A DNA stretch of 64,000 bases from Actinomycetota bacterium (GTDB taxonomy: Bacteria > Actinomycetota > Rubrobacteria > Rubrobacterales > Rubrobacteraceae). Location of the stretch: NCBI GenBank assembly GCA_902810695.1, contig CADDYV010000003.1, positions 1 to 64,000 of the forward strand, read 5' to 3'. Within the stretch, counting starts at the first letter, position 1, and the number at the start of each line of letters is the position of its first letter. Positions 2,628 through 39,110 of the stretch are shown here, piece after piece. The translations under genes were made by a program, and so were the position numbers. The notes beneath the pieces were generated by a model, which saw only the letters and a program-made list of their open reading frames with translations, did no database searches and had not been told where the DNA came from.

Positions 2628-3239
2628 ATGCAGTCTTCGGGCCGCCAAACGGAACTGGTCCAGAGAAAACCTATCTTGAGCGCCCGGCAGGTTGCTATCA
2701 CGGTGATCTTCGGTGCTATTGCGGGCGCGTTCGAGTTGTTGCAGATCACCATTCCGGGGTATCTGCCGGGGGTGAACTTCAGCCTCAGCGGGATCTGGCT
2801 CTCGCTCTCCACCATGATCGGCGGGCCGATAGTGGGTGTGATCGTGGCTTTCGTGGATGCGATCACGGGTCAGGTCGGGATAATCGGGGCTCCCGGGTTT
2901 GCTATACACGTGCTGATACTCGCGGCCCTCTATCCCAGAGTCTATAGAATCGAGAACCCCACCAGAAGGCTTGTAGGGTATCTAATCATCACCATGATCG
3001 CGCTGTTCTTCCAGTACTGGTGGTGGATCGGGCTCTACTCCTTCGTGCTGCAGATTATCCCGTTCAAGGCCCAGCTCGCCCTGCAGTTCGGCTACGCCTA
3101 CTGGGTGTACCTGGCGATCTACTTCCTGATCCCCGCTCTGGTGCTGGCTCGGGCTCCCCAGTTCGTCGCGCCGGAGTGGCGCTGGCCGTGGCAGAAAGAC
3201 GAGGAGATCAGCGCCCCTGTAGAGACCGGAACGCGATAG
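2628..3239 (+). CDS. ECF transporter substrate-binding (S) component
   Basis: About 203 residues with five to six hydrophobic helices and a short charged C-terminus, the normal size and layout for an ECF S subunit. Glycine- and alanine-rich first helices such as VIFGAIAGAFELLQ and GGPIVGVIVAFVDAITG fit the S-component fold. The ATG at 2628 is preferred because AAAGGGG ends 8 bases before it; GTG 2619 and ATG 2622 are in frame but overlap or crowd that ribosome binding site. A-A fusion and T components follow immediately, so this is a dedicated (group I) ECF importer. S subunits of this type bind vitamins or other small molecules; position next to hydantoinases suggests a related heterocycle, which is inference. 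Confidence 0.85.
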   Translation: MQSSGRQTELVQRKPILSARQVAITVIFGAIAGAFELLQITIPGYLPGVNFSLSGIWLSLSTMIGGPIVGVIVAFVDAITGQVGIIGAPGFAIHVLILAALYPRVYRIENPTRRLVGYLIITMIALFFQYWWWIGLYSFVLQIIPFKAQLALQFGYAYWVYLAIYFLIPALVLARAPQFVAPEWRWPWQKDEEISAPVETGTR

Positions 3240-3249
3240 TTGATCAAGG

Positions 3250-5019
3250 ATGGATCGGGAAGCCCAGGTACTGGAGGATAGCGGCGGGATACGTCCGCTC
3301 GCCTACGAACGCTTCTCTTATGCTTACAGGGGAGGGGACAGGGTCGTCAGCGATGTATCGCTCGACCTGGAGGAAGGGAAAGTCGTGCTCCTCACGGGGC
3401 CGAGCGGCGCCGGGAAAACCACGATCTGCAGGGCTGCAAATGGCCTGATCCCGCACGAGTTCAAGGGAACTTTCGGCGGCAGGGTTACCATCGCCGGGCG
3501 CTACGACTCACGCGGGATCGGGGTGAGCGCGCTCTCCAAGATCGTGGGGGTCCTATCCCAGGACCCGGAGACCCAGCTCTTCAACCCCACCGTGGAAGAT
3601 GAGATCGTCTTCGGCGCCTGCAACTACGGTTTGCCCGCCGACACCATCCGGGAGCGGACCGAGCGTCTTCTGGACCTCACCCGTCTCGGCCCACACCGCC
3701 GCAAGAACCCGCACAATCTCTCTGGAGGCCAGCAACAGTCCTGCGCGCTGGCTTCGATCCTGGCCTTCGAGCCGCTCGTTCTGGTCCTCGATGAGCCCAC
3801 TTCCAACATAGATCCAATAGGCAGCCAGCACGTCCTAGATCTGGTCTCCCGGCTCGCCCGCGAGGAGAACCGGACCACGCTGCTGGTGGAGCACAAGATC
3901 GAAGAACTCTCCGACCTCGTGGACGAGATGATCGTCATCAACGAGGGGGAGATCCTGCATCGGGGCACCGTCCGCGAGGTACTGGAGCACGTCGAGTACA
4001 TAGACTCGGTAGGCCTGAGCGTGCCCCAGGTTACCCTCCTCTGCGCCCGGCTGCGCACGGCTGGCTGGCCTATAGAAGAGTTACCCATAGGTATCGAAGA
4101 GGCGGTGCAGATCCTCTCGCCCCTGCTCGACAGGACTACCCTGAGCAACGCGCCCGAACCACCTCCCCGCCGCGTACAGCACGAGAGCGACGAGGTAGTC
4201 GTGAACGTTCAGAACCTCTCGCATGTCTACCAGGACGGCACCCGCGCCCTGAATGACGTGGACCTCGAAATCCGGCGGGGAGAGTTCGTCGGAATACTCG
4301 GCCAGAACGGGTCCGGGAAGACCACGCTCGTCAAGCACCTCAACGGGCTCTTGAAGCCCACGAAAGGCACGGTCACGGTGGCGGGCCTGGACACGCGCAG
4401 GGCTTCCATCGCCGAGATGGCCCTCGCGGTCGGCTACATCTTCCAGAACCCGGACTCCCAGATCTTCAAGATGAAGGTCGAGGAGGAGTTGGCCTTCGGG
4501 CCGCAGAACGTGGGCCTCTCCGAACAGGAGGTCGAAAAGCGCGTCAAAGCGGCCGCCGAAGACCTGGAGATAGCGCACCTTCTGGAGAAAAATCCGTTCT
4601 TCCTCAGCAAGGGCGAGAAGCAGAGGGTGGCGGTCGCGGCGGTGATGGCGATGCAGCCGGACATCCTCGTTCTGGACGAGCCTACGACGGGGCAGGACTT
4701 CAAGAGAGCAAAGGAGATAATGGATCTCGCCGTCCGGCTGCACAACGAAGGGCAGACGGTTATCGTCATAACCCACGACATGAACCTGGCCGCCGAGTAC
4801 TGCGACCGGGTCGTGATCATGGAGGGAGGAAGGGTGCTCCTGGATGCCCCTACGAGGGAGGCGTTTCTCGCCGAAGACAAACTGAAGACCTCGTCGCTCA
4901 GGCCCCCGCAGATAACTATGCTCGGCAGCGCGCTCGGCTATCCGCGAGCCTGGTTGACGGTGGACGAGGCGGTCGAGACGCTGGAAGACGCGAGGAGAGG
5001 AGCCGCCGGTGGCGTATAG
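3250..5019 (+). CDS. ECF transporter ATPase, fused EcfA1-EcfA2
   Basis: A 589-residue protein with two complete ABC ATPase domains in tandem. The first has Walker A GPSGAGKTT near residue 50, signature LSGGQQQ and Walker B LVLDEP. The second has GQNGSGKTT near 355, an altered signature LSKGEKQR and LVLDEPTTGQD. The two domains, separate genes in many bacteria, form the heterodimeric motor that drives the S component through EcfT. It starts 10 bases after the S gene, and its end overlaps ecfT by 11 bases, indicating one operon with translational coupling. The LSKGE variant in the second half departs from consensus LSGGQ, which is tolerated in asymmetric ABC pairs. Confidence 0.93.
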   Translation: MDREAQVLEDSGGIRPLAYERFSYAYRGGDRVVSDVSLDLEEGKVVLLTGPSGAGKTTICRAANGLIPHEFKGTFGGRVTIAGRYDSRGIGVSALSKIVGVLSQDPETQLFNPTVEDEIVFGACNYGLPADTIRERTERLLDLTRLGPHRRKNPHNLSGGQQQSCALASILAFEPLVLVLDEPTSNIDPIGSQHVLDLVSRLAREENRTTLLVEHKIEELSDLVDEMIVINEGEILHRGTVREVLEHVEYIDSVGLSVPQVTLLCARLRTAGWPIEELPIGIEEAVQILSPLLDRTTLSNAPEPPPRRVQHESDEVVVNVQNLSHVYQDGTRALNDVDLEIRRGEFVGILGQNGSGKTTLVKHLNGLLKPTKGTVTVAGLDTRRASIAEMALAVGYIFQNPDSQIFKMKVEEELAFGPQNVGLSEQEVEKRVKAAAEDLEIAHLLEKNPFFLSKGEKQRVAVAAVMAMQPDILVLDEPTTGQDFKRAKEIMDLAVRLHNEGQTVIVITHDMNLAAEYCDRVVIMEGGRVLLDAPTREAFLAEDKLKTSSLRPPQITMLGSALGYPRAWLTVDEAVETLEDARRGAAGGV

Positions 5020-5863
5020 CATCTCCTACCAGGACAGGGGCACGTTCGTACACCGGCTGGACCCCCGGGTCAAGCTGCTCTGGTGGCTCTCGATCAACGT
5101 CACGCTGACCACCTGGAATGACCCGACGTTCCTGTTGCTGCTGCTGATAAGCGTGTTCGCGTACGCCCGCCTGGCCGGTGTCCCGATCAGAGAAAACATC
5201 AGGCACCTCTTGCCCGTTCTGCCGTTCGTGGCCTTCGTGGTAGTGGCGAACGTGGCCTTCTGGAGACCCCCCGATCCCGGCCAGGCGCACCTGATCGGGA
5301 ATATCGTCGGGGAAAACTTTCCGGTACTGCCGAAGATACCGTTCTACTGGGAGACTCTGGTATTCAGCGCGGGAACCTTGATCCGGTTGCTGATCCTGGT
5401 GCTCAGCGCGCTCGTCCTCATAAAAACGGTATCCCCCTCCGAGCTTGCGCTGGCGATAGTCAAGACGGGCGTTCCGCCGGAGATCGGGATGGCGCTTTCG
5501 ATGACGATAGCCTACATCCCGGTGGTCATCGGGCAGTTGACCGCCGTGATGGAGGCGCAGCAGGCCAGGGCCTGGAAGACGAACGTGTCGAATCCCATCG
5601 CCCGTTTCCGCGCCTACGTGCCGATCGCGGTGCCCACCTTCTTCCGCTCCTTCCACGCTGCAGAAGCCATGGCCTCCGCGATGATGTCCCGCGGCTTCGG
5701 CTACGACGTGGACAACCGCACGGAGTTGAAGCCACTCCGGTTCCGGCCCGTAGACTGGGCTGTTGCCGCAGGGTTTGTGACGTTTCTCGTGGCCGGGTTC
5801 CTCGTCGGTTTCTTCGGCATCGCCAAGTACACGTTCACCACGAGCTTGCTAGGTCTGGGTTAG
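5009..5863 (+). CDS. ecfT: ECF transporter transmembrane (T) component, EcfT
   Basis: A 284-residue membrane protein of the CbiQ/EcfT family. The N-terminus DRGTFVHRLDPRVKLLW matches the common T-component opening in which the H-x-L-D-P-R-x-K motif precedes the first helix. Several hydrophobic segments and a cytoplasmic region with coupling helices (EAQQARAW, AMMSRGFGYD) follow; A-R-G-like motifs there dock into the two ATPases. The GTG start at 5009 lies inside the end of the ATPase gene (11-base overlap). With the two preceding genes it completes the importer, and hydantoinase genes begin 64 bases downstream. Confidence 0.92.
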   Translation: MAYSISYQDRGTFVHRLDPRVKLLWWLSINVTLTTWNDPTFLLLLLISVFAYARLAGVPIRENIRHLLPVLPFVAFVVVANVAFWRPPDPGQAHLIGNIVGENFPVLPKIPFYWETLVFSAGTLIRLLILVLSALVLIKTVSPSELALAIVKTGVPPEIGMALSMTIAYIPVVIGQLTAVMEAQQARAWKTNVSNPIARFRAYVPIAVPTFFRSFHAAEAMASAMMSRGFGYDVDNRTELKPLRFRPVDWAVAAGFVTFLVAGFLVGFFGIAKYTFTTSLLGLG

Positions 5864-5927
5864 AGAATGGTTTTTCTCCTGCTAGTCCTCGGGAGAGCTT
5901 CTAAAGAGTCCAGAGAGGGAGGGTAGA

Positions 5928-7964
5928 GTGACGAGATACCGCGTCTCGATAGACATAGGCGGCACCTTTACCGATCTCGTCGTCCACGACGAGGAAGAAA
6001 GGCGGTCGTTTACCGGTAAAGTTCTGAGTACCCCGGACGATCCGGCCCGCGGGGTGATAACCGGGCTTGAGGATCTGATCGAGGACCCGACCGATATCTC
6101 CTTCCTGGTGCACGGCACGACGGTTGGCCTGAACGCCTTCCTGGAACGGCGCGGGGCGCGGGTGCTGCTCATCACCACCGAGGGGTTCAGGGATGTCTAT
6201 GCCATAGCCCGCGGCGACCGCAAGAAGCTCTTCGCCCTGCAGTACCGCAAGCCCGAGCCGCTCATTCCCCTGCAGGACATCCACACGGTTCGAGAGCGCA
6301 TGCTCTACGACGGGATGGTAGAGGAGTCCATCCGCGAGGAAGACTTCGACCCCATCGTAGAGAAGGTGCGGGATGAGGGCATAGATTCGGTGGCGGTATG
6401 CTTTCTGCACGCCTACGTAAATCCCGAGCACGAGCTTCGGGCGCGCGAGATCCTGCGCAAGCGCGTACCCAGACTATCGGTGACGCTCTCGCACGAGGTG
6501 GCCCGCGAGTGGCGGGAGTACGAGCGCGCCTCCTCAGCCGTGCTGAACGCTTACATCGCCCCGACCGTCGAGCGCTACCTCAAGAACCTCGAAGGCCAGC
6601 TCGAAGAGCGCGGCGTCGGCGCCAGGCTGCACGTGATGCAGTCCAACGGGGGCGTAATGACCGCCTCAGCCGCCCGCGACCTGCCGATTCAGACCCTCCT
6701 TTCGGGGCCGGTGGGCGGCACGATAGGCGGCGGCGCTTTGAGTGAGGCTCTGGGTCGGCCAAACCTGCTCTGCGTGGACATGGGGGGCACCTCCTTCGAC
6801 GCGAGCCTCATCGTGGAGGGACAGCCTACGGTCTCCACGGAGGTCGAGCTAGAAGGTCTTCCCGTTCTGATGTCCCTCGTGGACATCCACACCGTAGGCG
6901 CCGGCGGGGGATCACTGGCCTACCTGGAGGCCGGAGCCCTGCGGGTCGGTCCGAGGAGCGCCGGGGCGGACCCCGGACCAGCGTGCTACGCTCGCGGCGG
7001 CACCCAGCCCACCGTAACCGACGCTAACCTCCTGCTTGGCCGGATGGATCCTAAATACTTCCTGGGTGGGGGTATGGACCTCGACGCCCGGGCCGCCGAA
7101 CAAGCTGTAAGCGGCGTCGCAAGGGAGCTGGATCTCCCCACCGAAGAACTGGCCGAGGGGATACTGAGGATCATCAACGCCAAGATGGCCGAGGCGATGC
7201 GGACGATCACGGTCGAACAGGGCATAGACCCGAGAGAGTACACGCTGGTTGCCTTCGGCGGCGCGGGTCCCATGCACGCCGTCGCGCTCGCCAGGGAGCT
7301 GGAGATAGGTGAGGTCATAGTGCCGCCCGCGCCGGGCACCTTCTCGGCCTGGGGCATGCTGCAGACCGACATCCGCCACGATATGACCCAGACCTTCTAC
7401 CAGCCGATGGATCCCTCGATCTCCGGTGAGCTTGAGTCCATCTACTCGAAGCTCGAAGAAGAGGCACAGGAAGTTTTGAGGGACGAGGGCGTGCCTTCGG
7501 AGCGCATGCATCTGGTGCGAACGGCGGATATGCGCTACGTCGGCCAGGAGTACTTCGTCAACGTGGAGCTGCCGCAGAACGGGAAGCTGACTGGGGAGAA
7601 ACTCGACGAGCTCACCGAGAGGTTCCACGCAGCATACAAGACCCGCTACGGACACTCGACGCCCGGGGCTCCGGTCGAATTCGTAAACCTGCGGGTCGCC
7701 GCCCTCGGAGAGCTGGAGCGGAACGTGGCGGGATTCAAACCACCTGCAGGGGACGAGGCTCCCGTGCACAGCACCCGCGAGGTCATCTTCGAGGGCAAAA
7801 CGTTGCCCACCAGGATCTTCCGTCGCGCCGAGCTTCCCGCAGGAGCGTGGATGGCCGGGCCGCTCGTGATAGAGGAGGACACCGCGACCACGGTGGTGCC
7901 GCCGGGGTGGGGAGCCAGGGTAGACGAGCTCGGCAACGTCATCATCGAGAGGGAAGGGAGCTGA
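5928..7964 (+). CDS. Hydantoinase/oxoprolinase subunit A (HyuA-type), copy 1
   Basis: A 678-residue protein of the usual HyuA length. It has two actin-like ATPase signatures: DIGGTFTDLV near residue 6 and DMGGTSFDASLIV near 284, with VDIHTVGAGGGS and DPGPACYARGG between metal and nucleotide regions. The family opens cyclic amides (N-methylhydantoin, 5-oxoproline, hydantoin) with ATP, using an HyuA/HyuB complex; acetone carboxylase subunits are relatives. HyuB follows with only 2 bases between stop and start, so the pair is co-translated. An AGAGGGAGGG-like ribosome binding site precedes the start. Substrate is unknown; N-methylhydantoin is one candidate discussed in the findings. Confidence 0.92.
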   Translation: MTRYRVSIDIGGTFTDLVVHDEEERRSFTGKVLSTPDDPARGVITGLEDLIEDPTDISFLVHGTTVGLNAFLERRGARVLLITTEGFRDVYAIARGDRKKLFALQYRKPEPLIPLQDIHTVRERMLYDGMVEESIREEDFDPIVEKVRDEGIDSVAVCFLHAYVNPEHELRAREILRKRVPRLSVTLSHEVAREWREYERASSAVLNAYIAPTVERYLKNLEGQLEERGVGARLHVMQSNGGVMTASAARDLPIQTLLSGPVGGTIGGGALSEALGRPNLLCVDMGGTSFDASLIVEGQPTVSTEVELEGLPVLMSLVDIHTVGAGGGSLAYLEAGALRVGPRSAGADPGPACYARGGTQPTVTDANLLLGRMDPKYFLGGGMDLDARAAEQAVSGVARELDLPTEELAEGILRIINAKMAEAMRTITVEQGIDPREYTLVAFGGAGPMHAVALARELEIGEVIVPPAPGTFSAWGMLQTDIRHDMTQTFYQPMDPSISGELESIYSKLEEEAQEVLRDEGVPSERMHLVRTADMRYVGQEYFVNVELPQNGKLTGEKLDELTERFHAAYKTRYGHSTPGAPVEFVNLRVAALGELERNVAGFKPPAGDEAPVHSTREVIFEGKTLPTRIFRRAELPAGAWMAGPLVIEEDTATTVVPPGWGARVDELGNVIIEREGS

Positions 7965-7966
7965 GC

Positions 7967-9709
7967 ATGGCGGAGATACGCACAGACCCTGTTACGACCG
8001 AGATCATCCGCAACCTCTTCCTCTCCTGCGCCCAGGACATGAACGCGACCATGATTCGGAGCGCCTACACCCCGATCATCTACGAGGGCAAGGACTGCTC
8101 GGTGGCTCTGCTGGACGAAAACGGGGACGTACTCGGCCAGTCCTCGGGGCTCCCGATCTTCCTCGGCAACCTGGAGGTCTGCGTAAAGCTCACCATCGAG
8201 CAGTTCGGACGCGAGGTCTTCGAGCCGGGCGACGTGTTCTACATGAACGACCCGTACCTGCAGGGCACGCACCTCAACGACTCCACCATCTTCGCTCCCA
8301 TCTTCTACGGGGACGAACTTGTCGGGTTCTCGGCAACCCGCGCCCACTGGCTCGACGTGGGGGCCAAAGACCCCGGCACCCCTATGGACTCGACCGAGAT
8401 CTACCAGGAAGGATTCCGCTGGGGCCCAACCAAGATCTACTCCCACTACGAGCAGCGGGAGGACGTGGTGGACCTTCTGCGGCGCAACGGCAGGTTCGGT
8501 TACTCGCTCATCGGCGACATGAACTCCCAGGTCTCGGCCTGCTTCACCGGGGAGGAAAGATTCAAGGTCATAGCGGACCGGTTCGGCGTGGATGCCATCC
8601 GCGCGGCCAGCGGGGAGATCTTCCGCCAGTCCGCCCAGCTCGACCGGGAGGCGGTCGCCGCTCTCCCCGATGGCACCTACACGGCGGAAGGCTGCCTGGA
8701 TAACGACGGCGTGGGAGATGAGCCCGTGTGGGTGAGGGTTCGGGTAGACATCTCCGGAGAGGAGATGACCATAGACCTGGAAGGCACCTCCGAAGCGGCG
8801 GCTGGCCCGGTGAACTGCGGGATGGCGCAGACCATCTCGGCGGCGCGGGTGGCCTACAAGCTACTTATCAATCCAGATCGCCCCGTGGACGGAGGAACCT
8901 TCCCGACCCTGACCGTGCGAGTCCCCGAAGGCTCTATCCTGCATGCCAAAGAGCCTGCTCCCTGCGGCTGGTACTTCACGCCACTCGGGTTGCTTATAGA
9001 CCTCATCGTCAAGGCACTCTCTCCGGTGATGCCCGATAAAGCCGCCGGTGCCCACTACGGCGACTCCATGGTGATCTACCTGGCAGGTATGGACCCGAGG
9101 AGAGATAACGCGCCGTTTCTTGCCCTCGAACCCACCCCCGGTGGCTGGGGCGCATTCGAGAGCGGTGACGGCCAGGACGGCCTCATAAACAACGTTAACG
9201 GTGGCTTCAAGGACATCCCCGTCGAGGTCTACGAGACCAAGTACCCGGTGAGGATAGGGTGCTACGGCTTCCGTCCTGACTCCGGCGGCCCCGGCAGGTC
9301 TCGCGGCGGTTGCGGCCTCTTCCGGGAGTACCGGCTCCAGACGGGCTGCAGCCTCTACCTCTGGTTCGAACGGTCCCGTACTCCGGCCTGGGGCCTGGAA
9401 GGTGGGCGCGATGCCCGCGGTCCGGAGGTAGTGGTAAGAAGCGACGGTTCGGAGCGGAGCATGCTCAAGGTGAACAATCTTCCTCTGAAAGCCGGGGACG
9501 TGGTAATCACCTACACCGGCGGCGGTGGTGGCTACGGCAATCCGCTGGAGCGAAATCCTGAACTGGTCCGTCGAGATGTGATCTCCGGTTACGTGACCCG
9601 AGAGGGCGCCGCTCGCGACTACGGCGTCGTCTTCACCGATGGGCTGGAAGTGGACGCCGAAGCCACAGCACGAAAGCGGGAGAAACTGGCAAAGGAAGGC
9701 TCATCATGA
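7967..9709 (+). CDS. Hydantoinase/oxoprolinase subunit B (HyuB-type), copy 1
   Basis: ATG 7967 (GGGAG eight bases before it) gives 580 residues, normal for HyuB. Typical features include ITTEIIRN-like N-terminus (DPVTTEIIRN), the NDPYLQGTHLND metal-site region, and the glycine-rich GGGGGYGNPL end. A longer in-frame extension to 7847 would overlap hyuA and is not credible. Its stop overlaps the start of the M24 peptidase in ATGA at 9706-9709, so all three proteins are translationally coupled. It should form the catalytic complex with the preceding HyuA in the cytoplasm. Confidence 0.92.
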   Translation: MAEIRTDPVTTEIIRNLFLSCAQDMNATMIRSAYTPIIYEGKDCSVALLDENGDVLGQSSGLPIFLGNLEVCVKLTIEQFGREVFEPGDVFYMNDPYLQGTHLNDSTIFAPIFYGDELVGFSATRAHWLDVGAKDPGTPMDSTEIYQEGFRWGPTKIYSHYEQREDVVDLLRRNGRFGYSLIGDMNSQVSACFTGEERFKVIADRFGVDAIRAASGEIFRQSAQLDREAVAALPDGTYTAEGCLDNDGVGDEPVWVRVRVDISGEEMTIDLEGTSEAAAGPVNCGMAQTISAARVAYKLLINPDRPVDGGTFPTLTVRVPEGSILHAKEPAPCGWYFTPLGLLIDLIVKALSPVMPDKAAGAHYGDSMVIYLAGMDPRRDNAPFLALEPTPGGWGAFESGDGQDGLINNVNGGFKDIPVEVYETKYPVRIGCYGFRPDSGGPGRSRGGCGLFREYRLQTGCSLYLWFERSRTPAWGLEGGRDARGPEVVVRSDGSERSMLKVNNLPLKAGDVVITYTGGGGGYGNPLERNPELVRRDVISGYVTREGAARDYGVVFTDGLEVDAEATARKREKLAKEGSS

Positions 9710-10821
9710 GCCTCGCAGAGCACCACAAGCGGCGCATCGGGCGTGTGCGGGAGGCGCTCCGGGAGCGGGGGCTGGAGGCGCTCTGGGTCGAGCCGTCCGT
9801 GGGGCTCTTCTACCTGACAGGACTTGAGCCGGTGAGTATGGAGCGTCTCTTCGGGCTTCTGATCCCAAGCTCCGGCGAGCTGCGGATGGTGGTGCCGTTG
9901 CTCTTGAGAGACGAGTGCAGCCACATGGACGATTCTGCGCAGATGATCGTCTGGGACGACTCGGAAGGACCCGAAAGGGCGGTCGAGATAGCCTTGAAAG
10001 ACATCGCCAGGTTGCACGTTCAGGGTTCTCTGCCCTCGTGGATGCTCTTCCTGCTGCAGAAAGTGTGGCCTGGATTGCAGGTGGAGCAGGATCCGGGCAT
10101 CCTCTCCGGGCTCAGGGAGCGGAAGGATGCGGGCGAGGTGGAGCTTCTCCGGAAGTCCGGGGAGATCACGGACGAGACGGTCGAGTGGGTGGGAACCCTC
10201 GACCTGGCAAATCTCACCGAGCGACAACTGGCTGGCAGGATACAGGCACGGTACATGGAGATGGGCCTGCGTCCGTCGTCGGAGGGTCTGATAGCTTCGG
10301 GAGCAAACGCGGCGATGCCGCACTACGTTGGCGGGGACGTACAGATACGAGATGACCAGCCGTTGCTTATGGATTTCGGCTGTGCGGTGGAGGGCTACTG
10401 GTCGGACATAACCCGCATCTACTTCCCGCGGGAACTCGACCCGGAGATAGAGGAAGTGTACGAGATAGTTTGCGAGGCATATGACACCGCTTTTGCCGCC
10501 ATAGGGCCGGGAGTTCCGTGTGAGGAGGTCGACCGCTCGGCCCGCGCGGTGATCGAGAAAGCTGGTTATGGAGAAAACTTCTTGCACCGAACGGGCCACG
10601 GGCTCGGCCTGGAAGTGCACGAGGAGCCCTACATAAGGGAGGGCAACGAGAAGCCCCTTGAGGTAGGACACGTATTCAGTGTGGAGCCTGGGATCTACGT
10701 GCAGGGCAGGTTTGGTATCCGCTACGAGAACATAGTCTATCTCGGGGAAGAAGGACCGGAGCCCTTGAACCTTAGCCCGCGCAAACACTTTTTCGAGACC
10801 CAGAGAGGAGGTGCGACATGA
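9706..10821 (+). CDS. M24-family metallopeptidase (Xaa-Pro aminopeptidase/dipeptidase type)
   Basis: A 371-residue protein with a creatinase-type N-terminal domain and a pita-bread catalytic domain. The five dimetal ligands are visible: Asp near 223 (MDFGC), Asp near 234 (WSDITR), His near 298 (HRTGHGLGLEVHE), Glu near 327 (SVEPGIYV) and Glu near 341 (RYENIV). Intact ligands point to a peptidase or dipeptidase rather than creatinase, which lacks them. Its start overlaps the hyuB stop and its stop overlaps the start of a tiny membrane peptide. In this context it may hydrolyse an N-substituted amino acid or imidodipeptide released by the pathway; that is inference. Confidence 0.88.
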   Translation: MSLAEHHKRRIGRVREALRERGLEALWVEPSVGLFYLTGLEPVSMERLFGLLIPSSGELRMVVPLLLRDECSHMDDSAQMIVWDDSEGPERAVEIALKDIARLHVQGSLPSWMLFLLQKVWPGLQVEQDPGILSGLRERKDAGEVELLRKSGEITDETVEWVGTLDLANLTERQLAGRIQARYMEMGLRPSSEGLIASGANAAMPHYVGGDVQIRDDQPLLMDFGCAVEGYWSDITRIYFPRELDPEIEEVYEIVCEAYDTAFAAIGPGVPCEEVDRSARAVIEKAGYGENFLHRTGHGLGLEVHEEPYIREGNEKPLEVGHVFSVEPGIYVQGRFGIRYENIVYLGEEGPEPLNLSPRKHFFETQRGGAT

Positions 10822-10913
10822 CCTCGGATCGAGCCTGGATATTCATTATCGTCCTGATAGCCCTGATCGGCATAGTAATGTTCTTCGTTGGTCCGAAGAT
10901 TGCCGGGGGCTAG
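10818..10913 (+). CDS. 31-residue single-pass membrane peptide, coupled to the M24 peptidase
   Basis: ATG at 10818 overlaps the M24 stop as ATGA and is preceded by a strong AGGAGGTG about five bases upstream. The peptide begins MTSDRAWIF, has one hydrophobic stretch of some 20 residues (IIVLIALIGIVMFFV) and ends with PKIAGG. Negative/positive charges before the helix and a lysine after it are consistent with a small inner-membrane protein. A permease gene begins 28 bases later. I know no family for it; a regulatory or accessory subunit of the permease or the peptidase is a guess. The strong ribosome binding site and coupling make translation likely. Confidence 0.7.
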   Translation: MTSDRAWIFIIVLIALIGIVMFFVGPKIAGG

Positions 10914-10941
10914 TCCCGGCATGTAAGCAGGAGAAGAGAGA

Positions 10942-12297: not shown

Positions 12298-12309
12298 GCC
12301 CCGACCGGA

Positions 12310-13392
12310 TTGCGCGAGTACATAGATCAGGAGAGTCTGGAAGATCTGGCCACCGGCGCCACGGTGCTGGGCGCGGGTGGCGGGGGAGACCCCTACCTGG
12401 GGAAGCTGATGGCCCGTCAAGCCATCGAGCTGCACGGTCCCGTGCGGCTGATGCAGGTTGCGGAGCTACCGGGGGAGGGCTTGGTGCTCCCCGTAGCCAT
12501 GATGGGTGCGCCTACGGTGCTCGTCGAGAAGATCCCGAACGGTTCAGAGCTGGAGAGCGTGGTCCGCGCCATAGAAACTCGTCTCGGGCAGCAAGCGGTG
12601 GCGCTGATGTCAGCGGAGGCCGGCGGCATCAACTCTACCATCCCCATCGTAGCTGCAACTGAGCTTGGGTTGTCTCTGCTCGACGCCGACGGGATGGGAC
12701 GCGCCTTCCCGGAGATCCCCATGTGCTCGATGAGCGTGCGGGGAATCTCCGCTACCCCTATGGCGCTCGCCGATGAGAAGGGTAACCTGATGCTCCTCGA
12801 AACGGTGGACAACGCCTGGACCGAGCGCCTGAGCCGCGCCGCAACCGTGGAGATGGGCGGCTCCTCGATAATAGCTCTGTATCCAATGACAGCGCGGCAG
12901 GCCACTTCGGCGGTGATATCCGGGACGATGAGCCGGGCGATCGAGATAGGGGAGAGGAGGCGTACGGCTCGCCAGCAGACACTCGACCCGCTTGGCGAGC
13001 TTCTCGAAGCGACTTCTGGAAAGATACTCTTCCGCGGAAAGGTGGTAGACGTGCTTCGCAGGACGGTCGGAGGCTTCGCCCGTGGGACCGCCAGGATCGA
13101 AGGCTTGGGCGAGGACACCGGGGCAACCTTGCAGATCGAATTCCAGAACGAAAACCTGGTGGCGCTTCGCGACGGCAAGCCGGTTGCCACCGTGCCGGAT
13201 CTGATCTCAGTCCTCGACGCCGACACCCGAGCCCCTGTCACCACCGAGGGCATCTCCTACGGCCAGAGGGTGGAGGTCGTCGGCATGCCCTGCGCCCCGA
13301 TCTGGCGCGAGCCTGGAGCGCTTGAGGTCGCAGGTCCCGGCTACTTCGGCTACCCGTTCGAGTACTTTCCACTGGAGGAGGTAGAAGCCTGA
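12310..13392 (+). CDS. DUF917 (S-methyl-thiohydantoin desulfurase-like) protein, copy 1
   Basis: A 360-residue protein from TTG 12310, with the family's N-terminal glycine-rich segment (SLEDLATGATVLGAGGGGDPY) and the EAGGINSTIPI and DGMGRAFPE motifs. DUF917 proteins are commonly encoded next to hydantoinase/oxoprolinase proteins, and the N-terminal domain is known from S-methyl-thiohydantoin desulfurase, which removes sulfur from a thiohydantoin ring. The stop overlaps the ATG of the next gene by one base (TGATG), so expression is coupled to the short HyuA-like protein. The start lacks a strong ribosome binding site, but the TTG-CGC-GAG opening is identical in copy 2. Enzymatic role here is inferred from family and neighbours. 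Confidence 0.85.
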   Translation: MREYIDQESLEDLATGATVLGAGGGGDPYLGKLMARQAIELHGPVRLMQVAELPGEGLVLPVAMMGAPTVLVEKIPNGSELESVVRAIETRLGQQAVALMSAEAGGINSTIPIVAATELGLSLLDADGMGRAFPEIPMCSMSVRGISATPMALADEKGNLMLLETVDNAWTERLSRAATVEMGGSSIIALYPMTARQATSAVISGTMSRAIEIGERRRTARQQTLDPLGELLEATSGKILFRGKVVDVLRRTVGGFARGTARIEGLGEDTGATLQIEFQNENLVALRDGKPVATVPDLISVLDADTRAPVTTEGISYGQRVEVVGMPCAPIWREPGALEVAGPGYFGYPFEYFPLEEVEA

Positions 13393-14951
13393 TGCGTCTC
13401 GGCATAGATGTCGGAGGGACGAACACCGACGCGGTAATACTCGATGAGGGCAATCGTCTCCTCGCCAAGTGCAAGACCCCGGACACCGACGACGTGATAA
13501 CCGGCATCGAACAGGCCGTCTCGGCAGTCGTGCAGGATGCCGATGTAGACCCTAAAGACATCACCCACGCAATGCTGGGCACCACTCAGGTGACCAACGC
13601 GATCATCGAGCGCCGTGGGCTGACCAGGGTAGGCATCCTGCGTCTCGGGGCTCCCGCAACAAAGGCGATAAGACCTCTAGCAGCATGGCCGGAGGATCTG
13701 CGGGACGCCGTGGAGGGTCCGGCCAGCATTCTGCCGGGTGGTGTCGAGTACGACGGCAGACCCATCTCCGCCTTCGACGAGACGGCGGTGAGAGATGCGG
13801 TAAGGGAGATGGAAGATGGCATCGAGGCTTTCGCCGTCTCCTCGGTCTTCTCGCCGGTTCGCGATGACGACGAGCGGCGAGCGGCCCAGATCATCCGCGA
13901 AGAAGCCGGCGAGGGGAAACCGATCTCTATCTCCAGCGAGATCGGCAGCATCGGACTCCTCGAGCGTGAGAACGCCACGGTGCTCAACGCCGCCGTTACG
14001 CCGGTAGCCCGGCGAGTGGTAGGGGCCTTCGAGGGCGCGCTCGAACGGCTCGGCATCAGCGCGCGCCTCTTCCTATCCCAGAACGACGGAACGCTCATGT
14101 CCCTGGAGTACGCTCTGCGCTACCCGATCCTCACCGTCGCCTGCGGACCGACCAACAGCATCCGTGGGGCGGCCTTTCTCTCCGGCATGTCCGACGCCAT
14201 AGTCGTTGATGTGGGCGGCACCTCTACAGACGTCGGCGTGCTGGCCGGAGGTTTTCCGCGCGAGTCGGCGGTCGCCGTCGAGATAGGAGGCGTACAGACG
14301 AACTTCCGCATGCCAGACCTCTTCTCCCTCGGTCTCGGTGGCGGCTCCATCGTTAGAGCCGACGGCGCGGCTGGGGTACGCATCGGGCCGGACAGCGTAG
14401 GGTACGCCCTCACCGAGGAGGCTCTCTGCTTCGGCGGAAACACCCTGACCATGACGGACATAGCTGTGGCACGGGGAGTGGCGGAGATTGGGGAGCCCGA
14501 TCGGGTAAGCGTGGCGCGCGAACTCGTTGATGCGGCACAAGAGCGCAGCCGGGCGATGTTCGAAGAGGCGGTGGACCGAGTGAAGACCAGCGCCGAGGAG
14601 GTACCCGTGATCGCGGTTGGCGGCGGCAGCATCCTCTTCCCCGATGAACTTACCGGCGTATCCAGGGTCCACAAACCCGAGCACTTCGAGGTGGCAAATG
14701 CTGTCGGTGCCGCCATCGCCCAGGTGTCGGGCACGGTAGACCGGGTGTTCTCGCTGGCGGAACGTTCGAGAGAAGACGCGCTGGAGGAGGCGCGCAAGAC
14801 CGCTTTCGAGGATGCGCGCCGGGCCGGGGCCGACGAGGACAGCCTGGAAGTGGTGGAGATCGAGGAGGTACCGCTGGCTTACCTTCCGGGAAACGCCGTG
14901 CGGATAAAGGTCAAGGCGGCAGGACGCCTCAAGAGCTACCAGGGAGGATAA
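13392..14951 (+). CDS. Short hydantoinase/oxoprolinase-family protein (HyuA-like, paired with DUF917)
   Basis: A 519-residue protein with actin-like ATPase motifs DVGGTNTDAV near residue 5 and DVGGTSTDVGVLAGG near 272, followed by LGLGGGSIVR. It is about 160 residues shorter than the HyuA copies here and lacks their C-terminal domain; this short form is the one usually found beside DUF917 genes, so it is not a truncation. It overlaps the upstream DUF917 gene by one base and precedes the second DUF917 gene by 5 bases. It likely supplies ATP-dependent activation for the DUF917 partner reaction; the substrate is not known. Confidence 0.87.
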   Translation: MRLGIDVGGTNTDAVILDEGNRLLAKCKTPDTDDVITGIEQAVSAVVQDADVDPKDITHAMLGTTQVTNAIIERRGLTRVGILRLGAPATKAIRPLAAWPEDLRDAVEGPASILPGGVEYDGRPISAFDETAVRDAVREMEDGIEAFAVSSVFSPVRDDDERRAAQIIREEAGEGKPISISSEIGSIGLLERENATVLNAAVTPVARRVVGAFEGALERLGISARLFLSQNDGTLMSLEYALRYPILTVACGPTNSIRGAAFLSGMSDAIVVDVGGTSTDVGVLAGGFPRESAVAVEIGGVQTNFRMPDLFSLGLGGGSIVRADGAAGVRIGPDSVGYALTEEALCFGGNTLTMTDIAVARGVAEIGEPDRVSVARELVDAAQERSRAMFEEAVDRVKTSAEEVPVIAVGGGSILFPDELTGVSRVHKPEHFEVANAVGAAIAQVSGTVDRVFSLAERSREDALEEARKTAFEDARRAGADEDSLEVVEIEEVPLAYLPGNAVRIKVKAAGRLKSYQGG

Positions 14952-14956
14952 ACCCT

Positions 14957-16123
14957 TTGCGCGAGATAACGACCCAAGACCTGGAGAACCTGGCCGTGGG
15001 AGCAGCCATTTTGGGCACCGGGGGCGGGGGGGATCCCTTTATAGGCATGGTTATGGCGCAGCAGGCAATCGAGGAAGAGGGTCCTGTTTCGCTCATGGAC
15101 CCGGACGAACTGGAAGACGAGGCGCTGGTCTTGCCCACGGCCATGATGGGAGCGCCTACCGTGATGATCGAGAAGATCCCCGAGGGAATGGAGGCGGTGC
15201 GGGCGCTCCGCGCCGAGGAACGCATGCTGGGCCGAAAAGCCGACGCCACCTCCCCGATAGAGTGTGGCGGGGTGAACTCGCAGATTCCCTTTGCTGCCGC
15301 GGCGCGGGCGCAACTTCCGGTGGTGGACGGGGATGGGATGGGTCGCGCCTTCCCGGAGCTTCAGATGGAGACCTTTCACGTCTACGGCGTGTCGGGAACA
15401 CCCGCTGTCGTCGCAGATGAGCGCGGCGCTGTCGTAACCATAGAGGCCAGAGACAACTACCAGCTCGAGTGGATCGCCCGCGGCGTGACGATCCGGATGG
15501 GCGGCCACGCGATGCTGGTGGACTATCCGATGTCCGGAGCGGACTTCAAGCGCACCGCCGTCCGCGGTACGATCTCCATGGGCATCCAGATAGGCGAGGC
15601 GGTAGCCGGAGCCCGCAAGTCCGGCATGCATCCCGTGGAAGCCGTGTGTGCGGCAACCCAGGATACCATCTACGGCCGGGGCGTGGTGCTCTTTGAGGGC
15701 AAGGTCACCGACGTGGAGCGCCGCACGCGCGAGGGGTTTGCGGTGGGCCACGCCTTGTTGCAGGGTCTCGGCGATTACGAGAAGAGTCATCTGGAGGTGC
15801 GTTTCCAGAACGAGAACCTGGTGGCGATCCGGGACGGGGAGACCATCGCGAGCGTGCCCGACCTCATCTGCCTCCTGGATAGCGAGCGGGCGACCGCGGT
15901 GACCACGGAGCGGCTGCGCTACGGCCAACGTGTCACCGCTATCGGTATTCCGACACCCGAGATCATGCGCTCAGCGGAGGCCCTGCGGGTGTGGGGGCCG
16001 GAGGCGTTCGGCTACGAGAATCTGAACTTCATGCCCCTGGAGCAACGCTTTGCCGGCTACTACAGAAGATACGGTGTCCCCAAAGAGAAGGAAAAACATC
16101 TCAGTACCTCGCCGAAAGCATGA
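14957..16123 (+). CDS. DUF917 (S-methyl-thiohydantoin desulfurase-like) protein, copy 2
   Basis: A 388-residue paralogue of the protein at 12310. It shares the TTG start with the same first codons, the glycine-rich VGAAILGTGGGGDPF segment, ECGGVNSQIPF and DGMGRAFPE. It is longer by a 28-residue basic C-terminal tail (RRYGVPKEKEKHLS). GGGAGGATAAACCC provides a ribosome binding site for the TTG. The two paralogues flank a HyuA-like gene, and a full HyuA follows 40 bases later. They may form a heteromer or handle related substrates; neither can be decided from sequence. Confidence 0.85.
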   Translation: MREITTQDLENLAVGAAILGTGGGGDPFIGMVMAQQAIEEEGPVSLMDPDELEDEALVLPTAMMGAPTVMIEKIPEGMEAVRALRAEERMLGRKADATSPIECGGVNSQIPFAAAARAQLPVVDGDGMGRAFPELQMETFHVYGVSGTPAVVADERGAVVTIEARDNYQLEWIARGVTIRMGGHAMLVDYPMSGADFKRTAVRGTISMGIQIGEAVAGARKSGMHPVEAVCAATQDTIYGRGVVLFEGKVTDVERRTREGFAVGHALLQGLGDYEKSHLEVRFQNENLVAIRDGETIASVPDLICLLDSERATAVTTERLRYGQRVTAIGIPTPEIMRSAEALRVWGPEAFGYENLNFMPLEQRFAGYYRRYGVPKEKEKHLSTSPKA

Positions 16124-16163
16124 TTGGAGTACCTTGAGCCTCGAACCTGCCAGGGGGGTAAAG

Positions 16164-18209
16164 ATGCGCGTGGCGACTGATGTGGGGGGCACCTTCACGG
16201 ACGTCGTGTACTTCGACGAGCGGACCGGGAGACACGGGACCGTCAAGGTGGACACCACCCCGCCGGATTTCGAGCGAGGCGTTATCTCCGGGTTGCATAG
16301 AGCTGGCTTGGATCTCTCGGAGATAGAATTCCTCACTCACGGTACCACGGTGGTTATCAACGCGCTGACGGAGCGCAGGGGAGCCAGGACGGGCCTCGTT
16401 ACCACCCGCGGCTTCCGCGACGTGCTGGAGATAGCGCGCGGCAACCGGCCCGACCTCTACAATTTCTACTTCTCCAAGCCAAAGCCTTTCGTGCCCCGGT
16501 ATCTAAGGAAAGAGGTCGCAGAGCGCCTCGATCACAAAGGTAACGTTCTCATCCCCCTCGACGTCAGGGAACTCGAATCCGTGGCAGGTTTTTTCAGGGA
16601 GGAGGGTGTGGAGGCGGTCGCGGTCTGCTTCCTGCACTCCTACGCCAACCTATCCCACGAGATGGAGGCTACTCGCGTCCTCAAAGAACTGCTGCCCGGC
16701 GTGTCCGTCCTCCCTGCGCATCAGATCACGCGGGAGTGGAAGGAGTACGAGCGGACGAACACGGCTGTGCTCTCCGCCTACGTTCATCCGGTGGCGAATA
16801 CCTACCTCGACTCGCTGGAACGCAAGCTCGGTCAGGAAAAGTTCGGGGGCAGGCTCTTCGTCATGCAGTCGAACGGCGGAAGCGCCACCGTGCGGGCGGC
16901 ACGAAGCAACCCCATCGCGATGGTCGAGTCGGGGCCGGTGGGAGGGGTGCTCGGGGCCGTGGCCCTGGGCGAGATGATAGGCGAGCCGAACATAATAACC
17001 CTGGACATCGGCGGCACGACCGCCAAGTGCTCCCTCGTGCAGAACGGGGAAGTCCGGGTGAACACCGGGTACAAGATCGAGCACTCCCGCACCAATCCTG
17101 GCTACCCGATACAAACCCCCGTGATAGACATCGTGGAGATAGGCAACGGCGGCGGGAGCATAGCCTGGCTCGACGAGGCAGAAGCCCTGCACGTCGGACC
17201 GAAGAGCGCGGGGGCCGTACCGGGACCCGCAGCCTACGGGCGCGGTGGCGAAGAGCCCACAACCACGGACGCCAACCTCCTGGCCGGCCGCATAGACCCC
17301 GACTACTTCCTCGGCGGGGAGATAGTCCCGGACATGGACGGCGTCCGGAGAGCCCTGGGAAGGATCGCGAACAGGCTCGGAGCCGGAGTCGAGGAGACTG
17401 CACGCGGCATTATACGGGTGGCGAATGCCAACATGGTCAACGCGCTCAAGCTGGTCTCTTTGAACAGGGGTCACGATCCCCAGGACTTCACCCTCGTGGC
17501 TTTCGGCGGGGGAGGCGCGATGCACGCGGCCACGCTTGCGGCGGAGCTCAACGTTCCAAAGATCGTGGTGCCCACCGACTGCGCGGTCTTCTCGGCCTGG
17601 GGCATGCTCCAGACCGATCTGCGCCGCGACTACGTGCGCACCCGGGTAGGGCGGCTCGACAGAGTTTCCCCGGAGGAAGTGGCTGACGTCTTCGAAGACC
17701 TTGAGCGTGCGGCGGCTGCGGAGTTCGCGGAGGACGGCGTGGGAGCCGGGCGCCTGATCTTCGACCGCTACGCGGATATGCGATACGCCGGGCAGGAGCA
17801 TACCGTCAAGGTGCGTTTCCCTGCCGGCGTGGTGGACCCGGAGAAGCTAGCAGAAGCTACCCGCCGCTTTCACGAGGCCCACGAGAAGGAATACGCGTTC
17901 CGGCTGGACTCGCCGGTGGAACTGGTCAGCTATCACCTAGCGGTCTACGGAACAATGAAGAGGCCGCAGGTGGCAAAGCTGAAGCGCGCCAGCAGGAAGA
18001 TTGCCGATTCGATCAGGGGCTCCCGCGAGGTGGACTTCGACGTTTATGGCATCCACCGGGCCGATGTTTACGAGCGTTCATTGCTGGAGCCAGGCACCGA
18101 GCTCTTTGGGCCAGCCGTCGTGGAGGAGCCGGCCACCACTGTCGTGGTCTTGCCGGACCAGCGGCTTGTGGTAGACGACTACGGCAACCTGCACATACAT
18201 CTGAGGTAG
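16164..18209 (+). CDS. Hydantoinase/oxoprolinase subunit A (HyuA-type), copy 2
   Basis: ATG 16164, just after AGGGGGGTAAAG, gives 681 residues that align from the first residues (MRVATDVGGTFTDVVYF) with copy 1. A longer frame from 16050 would overlap the upstream gene and is unlikely. The second ATPase motif is DIGGTTAKCSLV near residue 281, where copy 1 has DMGGTSFDASLIV; this TTAK variant, together with a NPGYPIQTP insertion, marks a different subfamily and possibly another substrate. HyuB copy 2 begins 9 bases after its stop. Confidence 0.92.
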   Translation: MRVATDVGGTFTDVVYFDERTGRHGTVKVDTTPPDFERGVISGLHRAGLDLSEIEFLTHGTTVVINALTERRGARTGLVTTRGFRDVLEIARGNRPDLYNFYFSKPKPFVPRYLRKEVAERLDHKGNVLIPLDVRELESVAGFFREEGVEAVAVCFLHSYANLSHEMEATRVLKELLPGVSVLPAHQITREWKEYERTNTAVLSAYVHPVANTYLDSLERKLGQEKFGGRLFVMQSNGGSATVRAARSNPIAMVESGPVGGVLGAVALGEMIGEPNIITLDIGGTTAKCSLVQNGEVRVNTGYKIEHSRTNPGYPIQTPVIDIVEIGNGGGSIAWLDEAEALHVGPKSAGAVPGPAAYGRGGEEPTTTDANLLAGRIDPDYFLGGEIVPDMDGVRRALGRIANRLGAGVEETARGIIRVANANMVNALKLVSLNRGHDPQDFTLVAFGGGGAMHAATLAAELNVPKIVVPTDCAVFSAWGMLQTDLRRDYVRTRVGRLDRVSPEEVADVFEDLERAAAAEFAEDGVGAGRLIFDRYADMRYAGQEHTVKVRFPAGVVDPEKLAEATRRFHEAHEKEYAFRLDSPVELVSYHLAVYGTMKRPQVAKLKRASRKIADSIRGSREVDFDVYGIHRADVYERSLLEPGTELFGPAVVEEPATTVVVLPDQRLVVDDYGNLHIHLR

Positions 18210-18218
18210 GAGAAGCGG

Positions 18219-19916
18219 ATGGCGGGAAAACCGGTAGACCCCTTCACGCTGGAGATCATCAAGAACTCGTTGGTCGCGCTCGGGGACGAGATGTTCTACG
18301 CGCTGCAACGAACGAGCAAGAGCCCCATCATCTACGAGACGCTCGACTACGCCGTGGGAGCGACAGACGCCCGCGGAAGCCTCATAGCCCAGGGCAACGG
18401 GGTGACAGGATTTCTGGGGACGCTGGATACGGCTGTCTCGGGTGTGCTGGAGAAGTTCGGCAAGGAAGGACTACAGCCGGGGGATGTGATCATAACCAAC
18501 GATCCCTATGGTGGAGGCGGCACGCACCTCTCCGACGTCTCTCTCATAATGCCCGTCTTCTACGGAGAGGAGATAGTGGCCTTCGTCGCCAACAAGGCGC
18601 ACTGGACGGAGGTTGGCGGCAAGGACCCCGGATCGTGGACCACCGATGCCACCGAGGTCTATCAGGAGGGGCTCCAGTTCCCGAACATCAAGCTCTTCAG
18701 CCGAGGAGAGCCCGACCGCGCCCTGCTCGACCTCATATCCGCCAACGTGCGCTTGCCGGACATGACCCTGGGAGACCTGTGGGCCGGTGTAGCCGCGCTC
18801 CGGGTTGGCGAACGGCGCTTCCTGGACCTATACCGGAAGTACGGAACGGATACGATACTCGCCTCTATCGAGGAGTTGCTCGATTACGGTGAGGAGATGG
18901 TCCGGCTGGAGCTTGCCAGGCTCCCCAGGGGCGTCTACGAAGCTGAGGACTGGATCGACGATGACGGCGTAGGCAACGGTCCCTTCCCTGTTAGGGTCAA
19001 GGTCACCATCACAGACGAGGAGTTCGTGGCCGATTTCACCGGCAGCCACCCGCAGGTGGCCGGGCCGATCAACTGCACCTGGACAGGACTGATATCGGAG
19101 GTCCGCGCCGGGTTCAAGGCGCTCACCACCCCACACCTTCCCACGACCAGCGGGATGTTCCGGCCCCTGAAGATAGTCTGTCCACCGAAGACCATCTTCA
19201 CCGCCGAGCGCCCCGCTCCCGTCTCGACGTACTGGGAGACGAAGCGATACGCAGTAGACCTCGTATGGAAGGCGCTCGCGCCGCACGTCCCTCACAGGTT
19301 GCCTGCCGGGCACTTCCTGTCGGTCTGCGGTACGGTCCTCGCGGGAACCCACCCGGACACCGGGGAGCTTTTCCTACTGGTGGAACCACTTGTGGGCGGC
19401 TGGGGAGCCGGACGCGACAAGGACGGCGAGAACGGCCAGTTCTGCGTCGGTGACGGAGAGACCTACAACATACCCGTCGAGGTGACGGAAACCAGGTACG
19501 GCGTGCTGGTCGAGCAGTATGCCTTCCACAACGAGGACGGAGGTGCCGGAGAATACCGCGGGGGGAAGGGCGTCGTCCTGGATTACCGAATCCTCTCGGA
19601 GGGAGCTTTCCTTACGGCGACCTTCGGCCGGCACAAGTTTCTCCCGTGGGGGATGGCTGGTGGTCAGGACGGTTCGCGCAATTACATCAAGGTCATCAGG
19701 AGAGACGGAGGCGAAGAGGTGTTCGGAAAGGTAGCGCGCCTGCGCCTCGAAAGAGGCGATCTCGTGCGCCTTGTGACGGGAAGTGGGGGTGGCTACGGGG
19801 ACCCTCGGAAACGTCCCAGAAAGAAGGTAGCTGAAGATCTGAGAAATGGGTACATCACACCCGCTCAGGCGAGGAATCTCTACGGATACGGGGTAGATCG
19901 GGGATACGCTTTGTAG
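18219..19916 (+). CDS. Hydantoinase/oxoprolinase subunit B (HyuB-type), copy 2
   Basis: A 565-residue HyuB beginning MAGKPVDPFTLEIIKNSL, with NDPYGGGGTHLSDV, HWTEVGGKDPGSW and a GSGGGYGDPRKR end. TAGGAG precedes the ATG by about 6 bases. It is the catalytic partner of HyuA copy 2 and the last gene of the 2628-19916 gene run. The next 245 bases hold no gene that I can support, and the following gene (murQ) is on the other strand. Confidence 0.92.
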   Translation: MAGKPVDPFTLEIIKNSLVALGDEMFYALQRTSKSPIIYETLDYAVGATDARGSLIAQGNGVTGFLGTLDTAVSGVLEKFGKEGLQPGDVIITNDPYGGGGTHLSDVSLIMPVFYGEEIVAFVANKAHWTEVGGKDPGSWTTDATEVYQEGLQFPNIKLFSRGEPDRALLDLISANVRLPDMTLGDLWAGVAALRVGERRFLDLYRKYGTDTILASIEELLDYGEEMVRLELARLPRGVYEAEDWIDDDGVGNGPFPVRVKVTITDEEFVADFTGSHPQVAGPINCTWTGLISEVRAGFKALTTPHLPTTSGMFRPLKIVCPPKTIFTAERPAPVSTYWETKRYAVDLVWKALAPHVPHRLPAGHFLSVCGTVLAGTHPDTGELFLLVEPLVGGWGAGRDKDGENGQFCVGDGETYNIPVEVTETRYGVLVEQYAFHNEDGGAGEYRGGKGVVLDYRILSEGAFLTATFGRHKFLPWGMAGGQDGSRNYIKVIRRDGGEEVFGKVARLRLERGDLVRLVTGSGGGYGDPRKRPRKKVAEDLRNGYITPAQARNLYGYGVDRGYAL

Positions 19917-21079: not shown

Positions 21080-21857
21080 TAACGGCGTATCCTCCTTGAT
21101 GGTGTGCGGGAGGGGCTAGGACGACCGCGCTCCGGTTGCGAAGCTCTTCGCCCTCCTGCAGTGGGGAGAGGCCGCGGGGCTCGGGCAAGGCGAAGACGGC
21201 GAGGAGCACGACTACGGCCACCGCGACGAGGTAGACCGCGAGCGATATATCGCTGCCGGTGCGCACCACGAGGAAGGACGCCACCAGAGGGGCGCTTCCG
21301 CCGAAGATCGCGTAGGCGGCATTGTATCCGACGGAAGCACCGCTGTAGCGCACCCTGGTGGGGAAGATCTCCACCAGAGTAACGACCACGACCGAGACCA
21401 CGAAGCTCCACGGGAGGGCCACAAACAACTGCCCGACCATAGCCCCGAGAACCCCTGAACCAGACGCAGAACGGCGAGCAGTACCAGGGCAAACAAACCC
21501 ACCAGACCTACGGTCGGCAAGAAGCCTATGAGCGTTGTTCCACCGCCCATGAGGAGCACGATCGCCGCCAGCACGTTGCGGCGGCCTATCCAGTCTCCCA
21601 GGCTGCCCCCAGAAGATCCCGCCGAGCAGGCGCGCGAGAAACGCGACACCGTAGAGCGCAAACGCGGAGATCACCGCGGCGCTGGCATTCCCTTTAGGGA
21701 AGAAGAGGGTCGCGATAACCGGAACCGAGTAGGAGTAGATCGCAAAGTCATACCACTCTACGAAGTTGCCGACGCTGCCCGCCGCAAGCGCCCTTATTAC
21801 CTCTCCCGTACCCCGAATCGTCCTCCTGCCACTCCCGACTTCTGAACCAACGGTCAC
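21072..21857 (-). pseudogene. MHS-type MFS transporter, disrupted by a frameshift and a large internal deletion
   Basis: The frame from GTG 21857 encodes an MHS-family N-terminus (GSVGNFVEWYDFAIYSY, then LLGGIF) and, near the end, its C-terminal part (EIFPTRVRYSGASVGYN). Between them the reading is wrong: the expected GSLGDWIGRRN and LRLVQGFS run in another frame, reached by one extra G in a G5 run (21606-21610). Near 21441-21455 VQGFS jumps directly to GAMVGQLF, losing roughly 180 residues (about helices 4-9 of twelve). The deletion restores the first frame, so a 261-residue product is nominally open but should not transport. Sugar-acid, amino-acid and betaine carriers belong to this family; MurNAc-related uptake is only a contextual guess. 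Confidence 0.85.
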
Positions 21858-39065: not shown

Positions 39066-39110
39066 GGCTGCGGGCCGTCTGAGGAGAGTCTTATCGCCTA
39101 CGACCTGATA

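Follow-up and report, generated by a model that had tools for sequence, protein, structure and literature searches.

The window analysed here, a 64,000-nucleotide stretch that forms part of contig 3 of a Rubrobacteraceae genome (3.59 Mb, 98% complete), carries the following block of genes between positions 1868 and 19916:

1868-2488, + strand: XRE-family HTH and cupin regulator (PF01381 and PF07883)
2628-3239, + strand: ECF S component, start ATG 2628 (alternative starts GTG 2619 and ATG 2622)
3250-5019, + strand: fused ECF ATPase (A-A') with two ABC domains (TIGR04521, TIGR04520)
5009-5863, + strand: ECF T component (PF02361, CbiQ)
5928-7964, + strand: HyuA1, ATP-binding subunit of a putative ATP-dependent cyclic-amide hydrolase (PF05378/PF01968/PF19278)
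7967-9709, + strand: HyuB1, metal-site subunit (PF02538, 536.8 bits)
9706-10821, + strand: M24 metallopeptidase, Xaa-Pro dipeptidase-like (PF00557/PF01321)
10942-12297, + strand: NCS1 permease, cytosine-permease branch (PF02133; PRK11017, 186 bits against a cut-off of 326)
12310-13392, + strand: DUF917 protein D1, S-Me-THD family (PF06032, PF20906)
13392-14951, + strand: short HyuA-like protein, 519 aa (PF05378, partial PF01968), without the C-terminal HyuA domain
14957-16123, + strand: DUF917 protein D2 (PF06032), 48% identical to D1
16164-18209, + strand: HyuA2, likeliest start ATG 16164 (CapA model, 506 bits against a cut-off of 1000)
18219-19916, + strand: HyuB2 (CapB model, 287 bits against a cut-off of 1000)

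Intergenic distances across this block range from -11 to 139 bp and are below 15 bp for most gene pairs, with larger spacers ahead of S (139 bp), HyuA1 (64 bp) and the NCS1 gene (120 bp). The first-pass annotation had already placed the ECF importer, both HyuA/HyuB pairs, the M24 peptidase, the NCS1 permease, the pair of DUF917 proteins and the short HyuA-like protein at 2628-19916, and we confirmed every one of them. Absent from that account was the XRE-cupin gene directly upstream of S. Copies of its product, 55-66% identical, adjoin the equivalent block in Rubrobacter taiwanensis and Thermogemmatispora, and because the gene is kept alongside the block in both we count it as part of the set. 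The XRE-cupin protein is a likely local regulator; a search for a common operator motif yielded none that was convincing.

The S, A-A' and T genes lie in one operon (2628-5863) with spacers of 10 and -11 bp, the gene set of a group I ECF importer. The fused ATPase scores 477.7 bits against TIGR04521 (cut-off 330) and 454 bits against TIGR04520 (cut-off 315), each score being a sum over both ABC domains, and the T component falls within the CbiQ superfamily (PF02361, 100.2 bits against a threshold of 25) and below the equivalog cut-off for cobalt CbiQ (80 against 111.8 bits). Each of five genomes tested encodes four or five T components, at least three of them besides the one belonging to this importer; in the host there are three others, one of which adjoins ribosomal genes as in shared modules. 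Since further T components are present in every genome tested, we read S-AA'-T as a probably dedicated (group I) ECF importer.

Neither the window's S component nor its relatives (six members together) match a Pfam or NCBIfam family at E<=0.001. Grouping of S with known vitamin carriers, the outcome that the first-pass annotation had named as counting against its reading, was thus not seen. Weak matches were found to RibU (3p5n, E 0.0087) and, for one of six relatives, to PF12822 ECF_trnsprt (E 0.0026), while comparison of an S profile with one BioY-like and one QueT-like protein was negative. Pfam recognises other S proteins of the host genome as ECF_trnsprt and QueT, so the lack of an assignment here does not stem from generally weak models. 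An AlphaFold model built with six close sequences reached a mean pLDDT of only 47 and has five helices, against the six expected of the S fold. As judged by sequence comparison, the S component belongs to a family that matches no known vitamin carrier (BioY, ThiT, RibU, QueT or others). The system resembles group I ECF transporters in that S, fused A-A' and T are encoded together and further T components occur at other places in the genome, and differs from them in that its S component is in no recognised S family and its partners are ring-opening enzymes, not vitamin genes. Relatives of S, about 55-90% identical, turned up in R. taiwanensis and in Ktedonobacteria but in none of the other genomes searched (hits in two of 397 Actinomycetota genomes and five of 400 Chloroflexota genomes), and none was found on plasmids. 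One of them, from the ktedonobacterial genome G726 (contig C14, 29145-30689, - strand), is extended at its C terminus by some 310 residues rich in Glu/Thr/Pro repeats, which is unusual for an S protein. The host itself encodes another S-T-AA' set near hut genes on contig C27, whose S component matches QueT (E 2.8e-15).

The importer recurs beside HyuAB genes in a second phylum, with a different HyuAB pair. The R. taiwanensis operon runs XRE-S-AA'-T-HyuA1-HyuB1-M24, at 65-90% identity to the window genes, and is followed by queA/tgt (tRNA-queuosine) and secDF; it contains no NCS1, DUF917, short HyuA, HyuAB2 or vitamin gene, and a search of the R. taiwanensis genome for a close HyuB2 gave none. 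The genome of the same family that shares the S component (G026) has the same locus as R. taiwanensis, which places the host with the Rubrobacter group. In Thermogemmatispora (three species and one MAG) the order is XRE-HyuA2-HyuB2-S-AA'-T, and G726, from the same class but less closely related, has HyuA2-HyuB2-S-AA'-T with an S component 56% identical. The HyuA2 ortholog that adjoins S-AA'-T in Thermogemmatispora is 53% identical to the window protein; HyuB2 is 65-69% identical to the Ktedonobacteria copies and 63% to a Parageobacillus copy. The XRE-cupin gene is retained in most ECF-HyuAB loci. The importer is therefore joined to HyuAB1 in Rubrobacter and to HyuAB2 in Ktedonobacteria, and the window carries both. 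A HyuB tree of 26 rows places HyuB1 and HyuB2 in separate clades (support 100/98 for the 6-row clade and 100/100 for the 12-row clade), both of which hold ECF-linked and proline-linked members. Because the adjacency recurs across two phyla and involves two distinct HyuAB clades, we do not attribute it to chance, and because S-AA'-T-HyuA1-HyuB1-M24 stands alone in R. taiwanensis, the window set splits in two. The proposal that an ECF importer is tied here to ring-opening enzymes, putting this class of transporter to catabolic use, is supported by the recurrent linkage, by an S component unlike the vitamin carriers and by a search for riboswitches that found none in the window or in five related loci; the structural claim holds in a stronger form than the one in which it was first put. 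We conclude that this is very probably a dedicated catabolic ECF importer for some HyuAB substrate.

HyuA1 contains the ATP motifs DIGGTFTDL, DMGGTSFD and GADPGP, and ATP motifs are also kept in HyuA2. HyuB1 and HyuB2 both conserve the D/H/D/H Zn ligands of caprolactamase CapB (D43/H103/D106/H128 kept in HyuB2), and these Asp/His/Asp/His metal ligands are essential in caprolactamase (PMC8453981). From the ATP motifs and metal ligands together, we infer that the two pairs fit ATP-dependent cyclic-amide hydrolases. They share with CapAB and the ATP-dependent hydantoinase-oxoprolinase family (PMC8453981) the two-subunit plan, the HyuA ATP motifs and the HyuB metal ligands, and differ from CapAB in their operon partners and in their scores against the caprolactamase models, where HyuA1 and HyuA2 reach 506-550 bits and HyuB1 and HyuB2 287-300 bits, all below the cut-off of 1000. 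Since HyuA and HyuB are far from every characterised enzyme, their sequences reveal no substrate. The M24 protein, whose gene adjoins HyuAB1 in the window and in R. taiwanensis, has the full set of five metal ligands (D, D, H, E and E) conserved in an alignment of six, and in NCBIfam it comes closest to the PRK09795 aminopeptidase and to PepQ, without reaching either cut-off. The first-pass annotation had given this Xaa-Pro-type peptidase little weight, although it is the more informative partner. A third, divergent HyuAB pair lies on host contig C70, with an M24-like gene upstream (31% identity).

A connection to proline emerges from the surroundings of HyuB2 relatives (48-63% identical) and HyuB1 relatives (49-62%) drawn from plasmids and Actinomycetota genomes. 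In Parageobacillus, a record picked in the knowledge that several queries already matched there, the order is XRE-HyuA-HyuB-cupin-Xaa-Pro peptidase (M24)-P5C dehydrogenase-proline dehydrogenase. Genome G339, whose HyuB1 is the closest one from outside the family (62%), has M24-HyuB-HyuA with XRE and PRODH-P5CDH genes. HyuAB genes are accompanied by proline and P5C dehydrogenases in Rhodococcus, by a fused PutA in Paenarthrobacter and by proC in Ensifer; dipeptide ABC transporter genes occur in several relative loci, and Thermus has dipeptide ABC-M24-HyuAB. The Parageobacillus P5C dehydrogenase scores above its family cut-offs, and the proline dehydrogenases match the proline dehydrogenase family best, at scores below its cut-off. 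Read from gene order, the Parageobacillus and G339 loci look like a full route by which a cyclic amide could be turned into glutamate. Among 15 non-ECF HyuAB loci, M24 is present in seven and a proline or P5C dehydrogenase in four, with proC in one more, and ten have a gene of either kind; the 11 control loci (five other HyuAB and six other ECF) have no proline genes and a single M24, in a HyuAB control, a contrast that is indicative only, since the control stretches span 6.5-11 kb and the test stretches mostly 12-34 kb. The window contains no recognised gene of proline catabolism, and neither an M24 nor a proline gene was found in the stretch read at the Thermogemmatispora and G726 loci. Asp/Glu/hydantoin racemase-family genes also recur next to HyuAB (five loci), and their products could epimerise cyclic dipeptides or hydantoins.

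We propose that the imported substrate is a proline-yielding cyclic amide, with diketopiperazines as the first candidate, and we give this reading an even chance of being correct. Proline diketopiperazines fit best because this one substrate class accounts at once for the ring-opening amidase, the Xaa-Pro-type peptidase and the oxidation of proline. The S component would bind the ring compound outside the cell and A-A' and T would power its uptake; here the transporter class is taken from family membership and operon structure, and the ligand is one that we infer. HyuA would then activate the amide with ATP and the HyuB metal site would hydrolyse it, opening the ring, as the caprolactamase ATP and metal motifs conserved in HyuAB suggest. 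On the model of the relatives' loci, the M24 enzyme would split the linear dipeptide to amino acids, proline among them, and proline would pass to proline dehydrogenase and P5C dehydrogenase, both general enzymes, to give glutamate. HyuAB1 and HyuAB2 may serve different proline-containing diketopiperazines, and NCS1-DUF917-short HyuA-DUF917 would constitute a second, widespread ring-amide module in the same operon. A more specific proposal, that the new S family is a proline-cyclic-dipeptide ECF importer for nutrition and that the linked HyuAB pairs are ATP-dependent diketopiperazine hydrolases, is tentative, and we think it rather more likely to fail than to hold. The missing M24 at the Thermogemmatispora locus is the main gap in the diketopiperazine reading, and we know of no ECF importers for peptides. 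Several of the hosts are thermophiles, in which diketopiperazine rings may form readily.

Two described systems bear on the diketopiperazine reading. A two-step breakdown that relies on a cyclodipeptide hydrolase together with a dipeptidase has been reported, with the hydrolase genes left unidentified (PMC3852281); in the block described here the gene of a ring-opening enzyme likewise precedes a dipeptidase-like gene, and to equate HyuAB with that hydrolase is our own extrapolation. Clusters of DUF917, racemase and dipeptide-ABC genes surround cyclodipeptide-oxidase-like genes (PMC11055893), and the same company of DUF917, hydantoin-racemase-like genes and ABC transporters is found at one relative locus (L008). 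The window differs from those clusters in that a cyclodipeptide oxidase was not noticed in it and its importers are of the ECF or NCS1 type.

Several other substrates have to be weighed. Another dedicated compound, such as a 5-substituted hydantoin, a dihydropyrimidine or a lactam, could be taken up by the ECF importer and opened by HyuAB. The NCS1 family includes a hydantoin carrier, and the racemase-family genes seen in several relatives would suit such a route. HyuAB enzymes with these activities are already known (PMC8453981), but a carbamoylase gene is missing from both the window block and the R. taiwanensis operon, and the M24 and proline genes are left unexplained; we regard this alternative as unlikely. 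It is distinctly unlikely, in our view, that HyuAB is instead a 5-oxoprolinase yielding glutamate, with M24 trimming pyroglutamyl peptides. HyuAB does lie within the oxoprolinase superfamily (PMC8453981) and proline oxidation likewise ends in glutamate, yet a 5-oxoprolinase yields glutamate directly, and the proline and P5C dehydrogenases in four relatives would then be uncalled for.

A creatinine or N-methylhydantoin route would make HyuAB an N-methylhydantoinase and M24 a creatinase-like enzyme, with the NCS1 and ECF transporters importing the ring. Among solved structures, HyuA1 and HyuB2 do match N-methylhydantoinase 7hk5 best, and a CodA-type deaminase is encoded at 39111-40370. However, creatinases lack the five M24 metal ligands, all of which are retained here, the deaminase gene lies 19 kb off and outside the conserved block, and the proline links are again left without explanation, and we consider this route quite improbable. 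We put at the same low level the possibility that the importer's ligand is a vitamin or cofactor precursor and that the importer's place next to HyuAB has no functional meaning: ECF importers carry vitamins for the most part and S does weakly resemble RibU, but the adjacency to HyuAB is kept across two phyla despite differing gene orders and HyuAB clades, riboswitches and, in the R. taiwanensis operon, vitamin genes are lacking, and S stands outside the known S families.

The first-pass annotation had also suggested that DUF917 desulfurises a thiohydantoin derived from ergothioneine and that HyuAB opens the resulting hydantoin. D1 and D2 share the Pfam families (PF06032/PF20906) of the thiohydantoin and S-methyl thiohydantoin desulfurases (NF058529, NF058532), and the two HyuAB pairs could open the product, but D1 scores 110 and 99 bits against desulfurase cut-offs of 450 and 440 and D2 scores 94 and 93 bits against 440 and 450, about a quarter or less of what those models demand. 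The suggested search of the host genome for ergothionase and thiourocanate hydratase genes found a sole urocanase, HutU (945.9 bits against a cut-off of 375), whose gene adjoins HutH and which falls below both thiourocanate hydratase cut-offs (686 against 930 and 741 against 880 bits); among full-length aromatic lyases this 98% complete genome has only HutH and a tyrosine-lyase-like protein. In Thermogemmatispora, two whole genomes with the ECF-HyuAB block contain no DUF917 gene, and the window block has no carbamoylase. We rejected the ergothioneine reading on the desulfurase scores, the identity of the urocanase and the DUF917-free genomes, and its probability is very small. A second histidine ammonia-lyase-like gene, a fragment, lies near position 44604 of host contig C27, the contig that carries the hut genes.

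The DUF917 genes belong with the short HyuA-like gene in a wider association. Short HyuA copies 53-60% identical to the window protein pair with DUF917 in bacteria and archaea, and these widespread pairs are accompanied by a transporter, NCS1 or ABC, both in bacteria and in a haloarchaeon, relatives of the window's NCS1 permease among their neighbours. The combination is present in seven of the 15 HyuB1/HyuB2 loci outside the ECF group. The short HyuA-like protein has two phosphate motifs and is missing the GxxPGP motif. It is conceivable that short HyuA (ATP) and DUF917 might act in one joint reaction.

If the proposed substrate class is correct, a catabolic substrate would join the vitamins and metals that ECF importers carry. 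An operon conserved in two phyla names its own downstream enzymes, which makes the ligand directly testable, and it supplies concrete candidate genes for the ring opening of proline diketopiperazines, compounds that are abundant and resistant to degradation and whose bacterial hydrolases have been reported as unknown (PMC3852281). A search of mainly open-access papers found no link between ECF importers and hydantoin, oxoprolinase or cyclic dipeptides.

Other genes of the window lie downstream of the block. Between 20162 and 26206 lies what looks like a gene set for cell-wall amino-sugar recycling, with MurQ (20162-21079, - strand), a regulator of the GntR type (24281-25009) and a kinase resembling AnmK (25016-26206), and within this stretch an MFS transporter gene spread over overlapping frames (21072-21857, - strand) appears frameshifted or truncated. 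Further on, at 36471-40370, the genes for another NCS1 permease, for a Rieske protein and for the CodA-type deaminase (NF006685, 587 bits against a cut-off of 483) form one more small ring-compound cluster.
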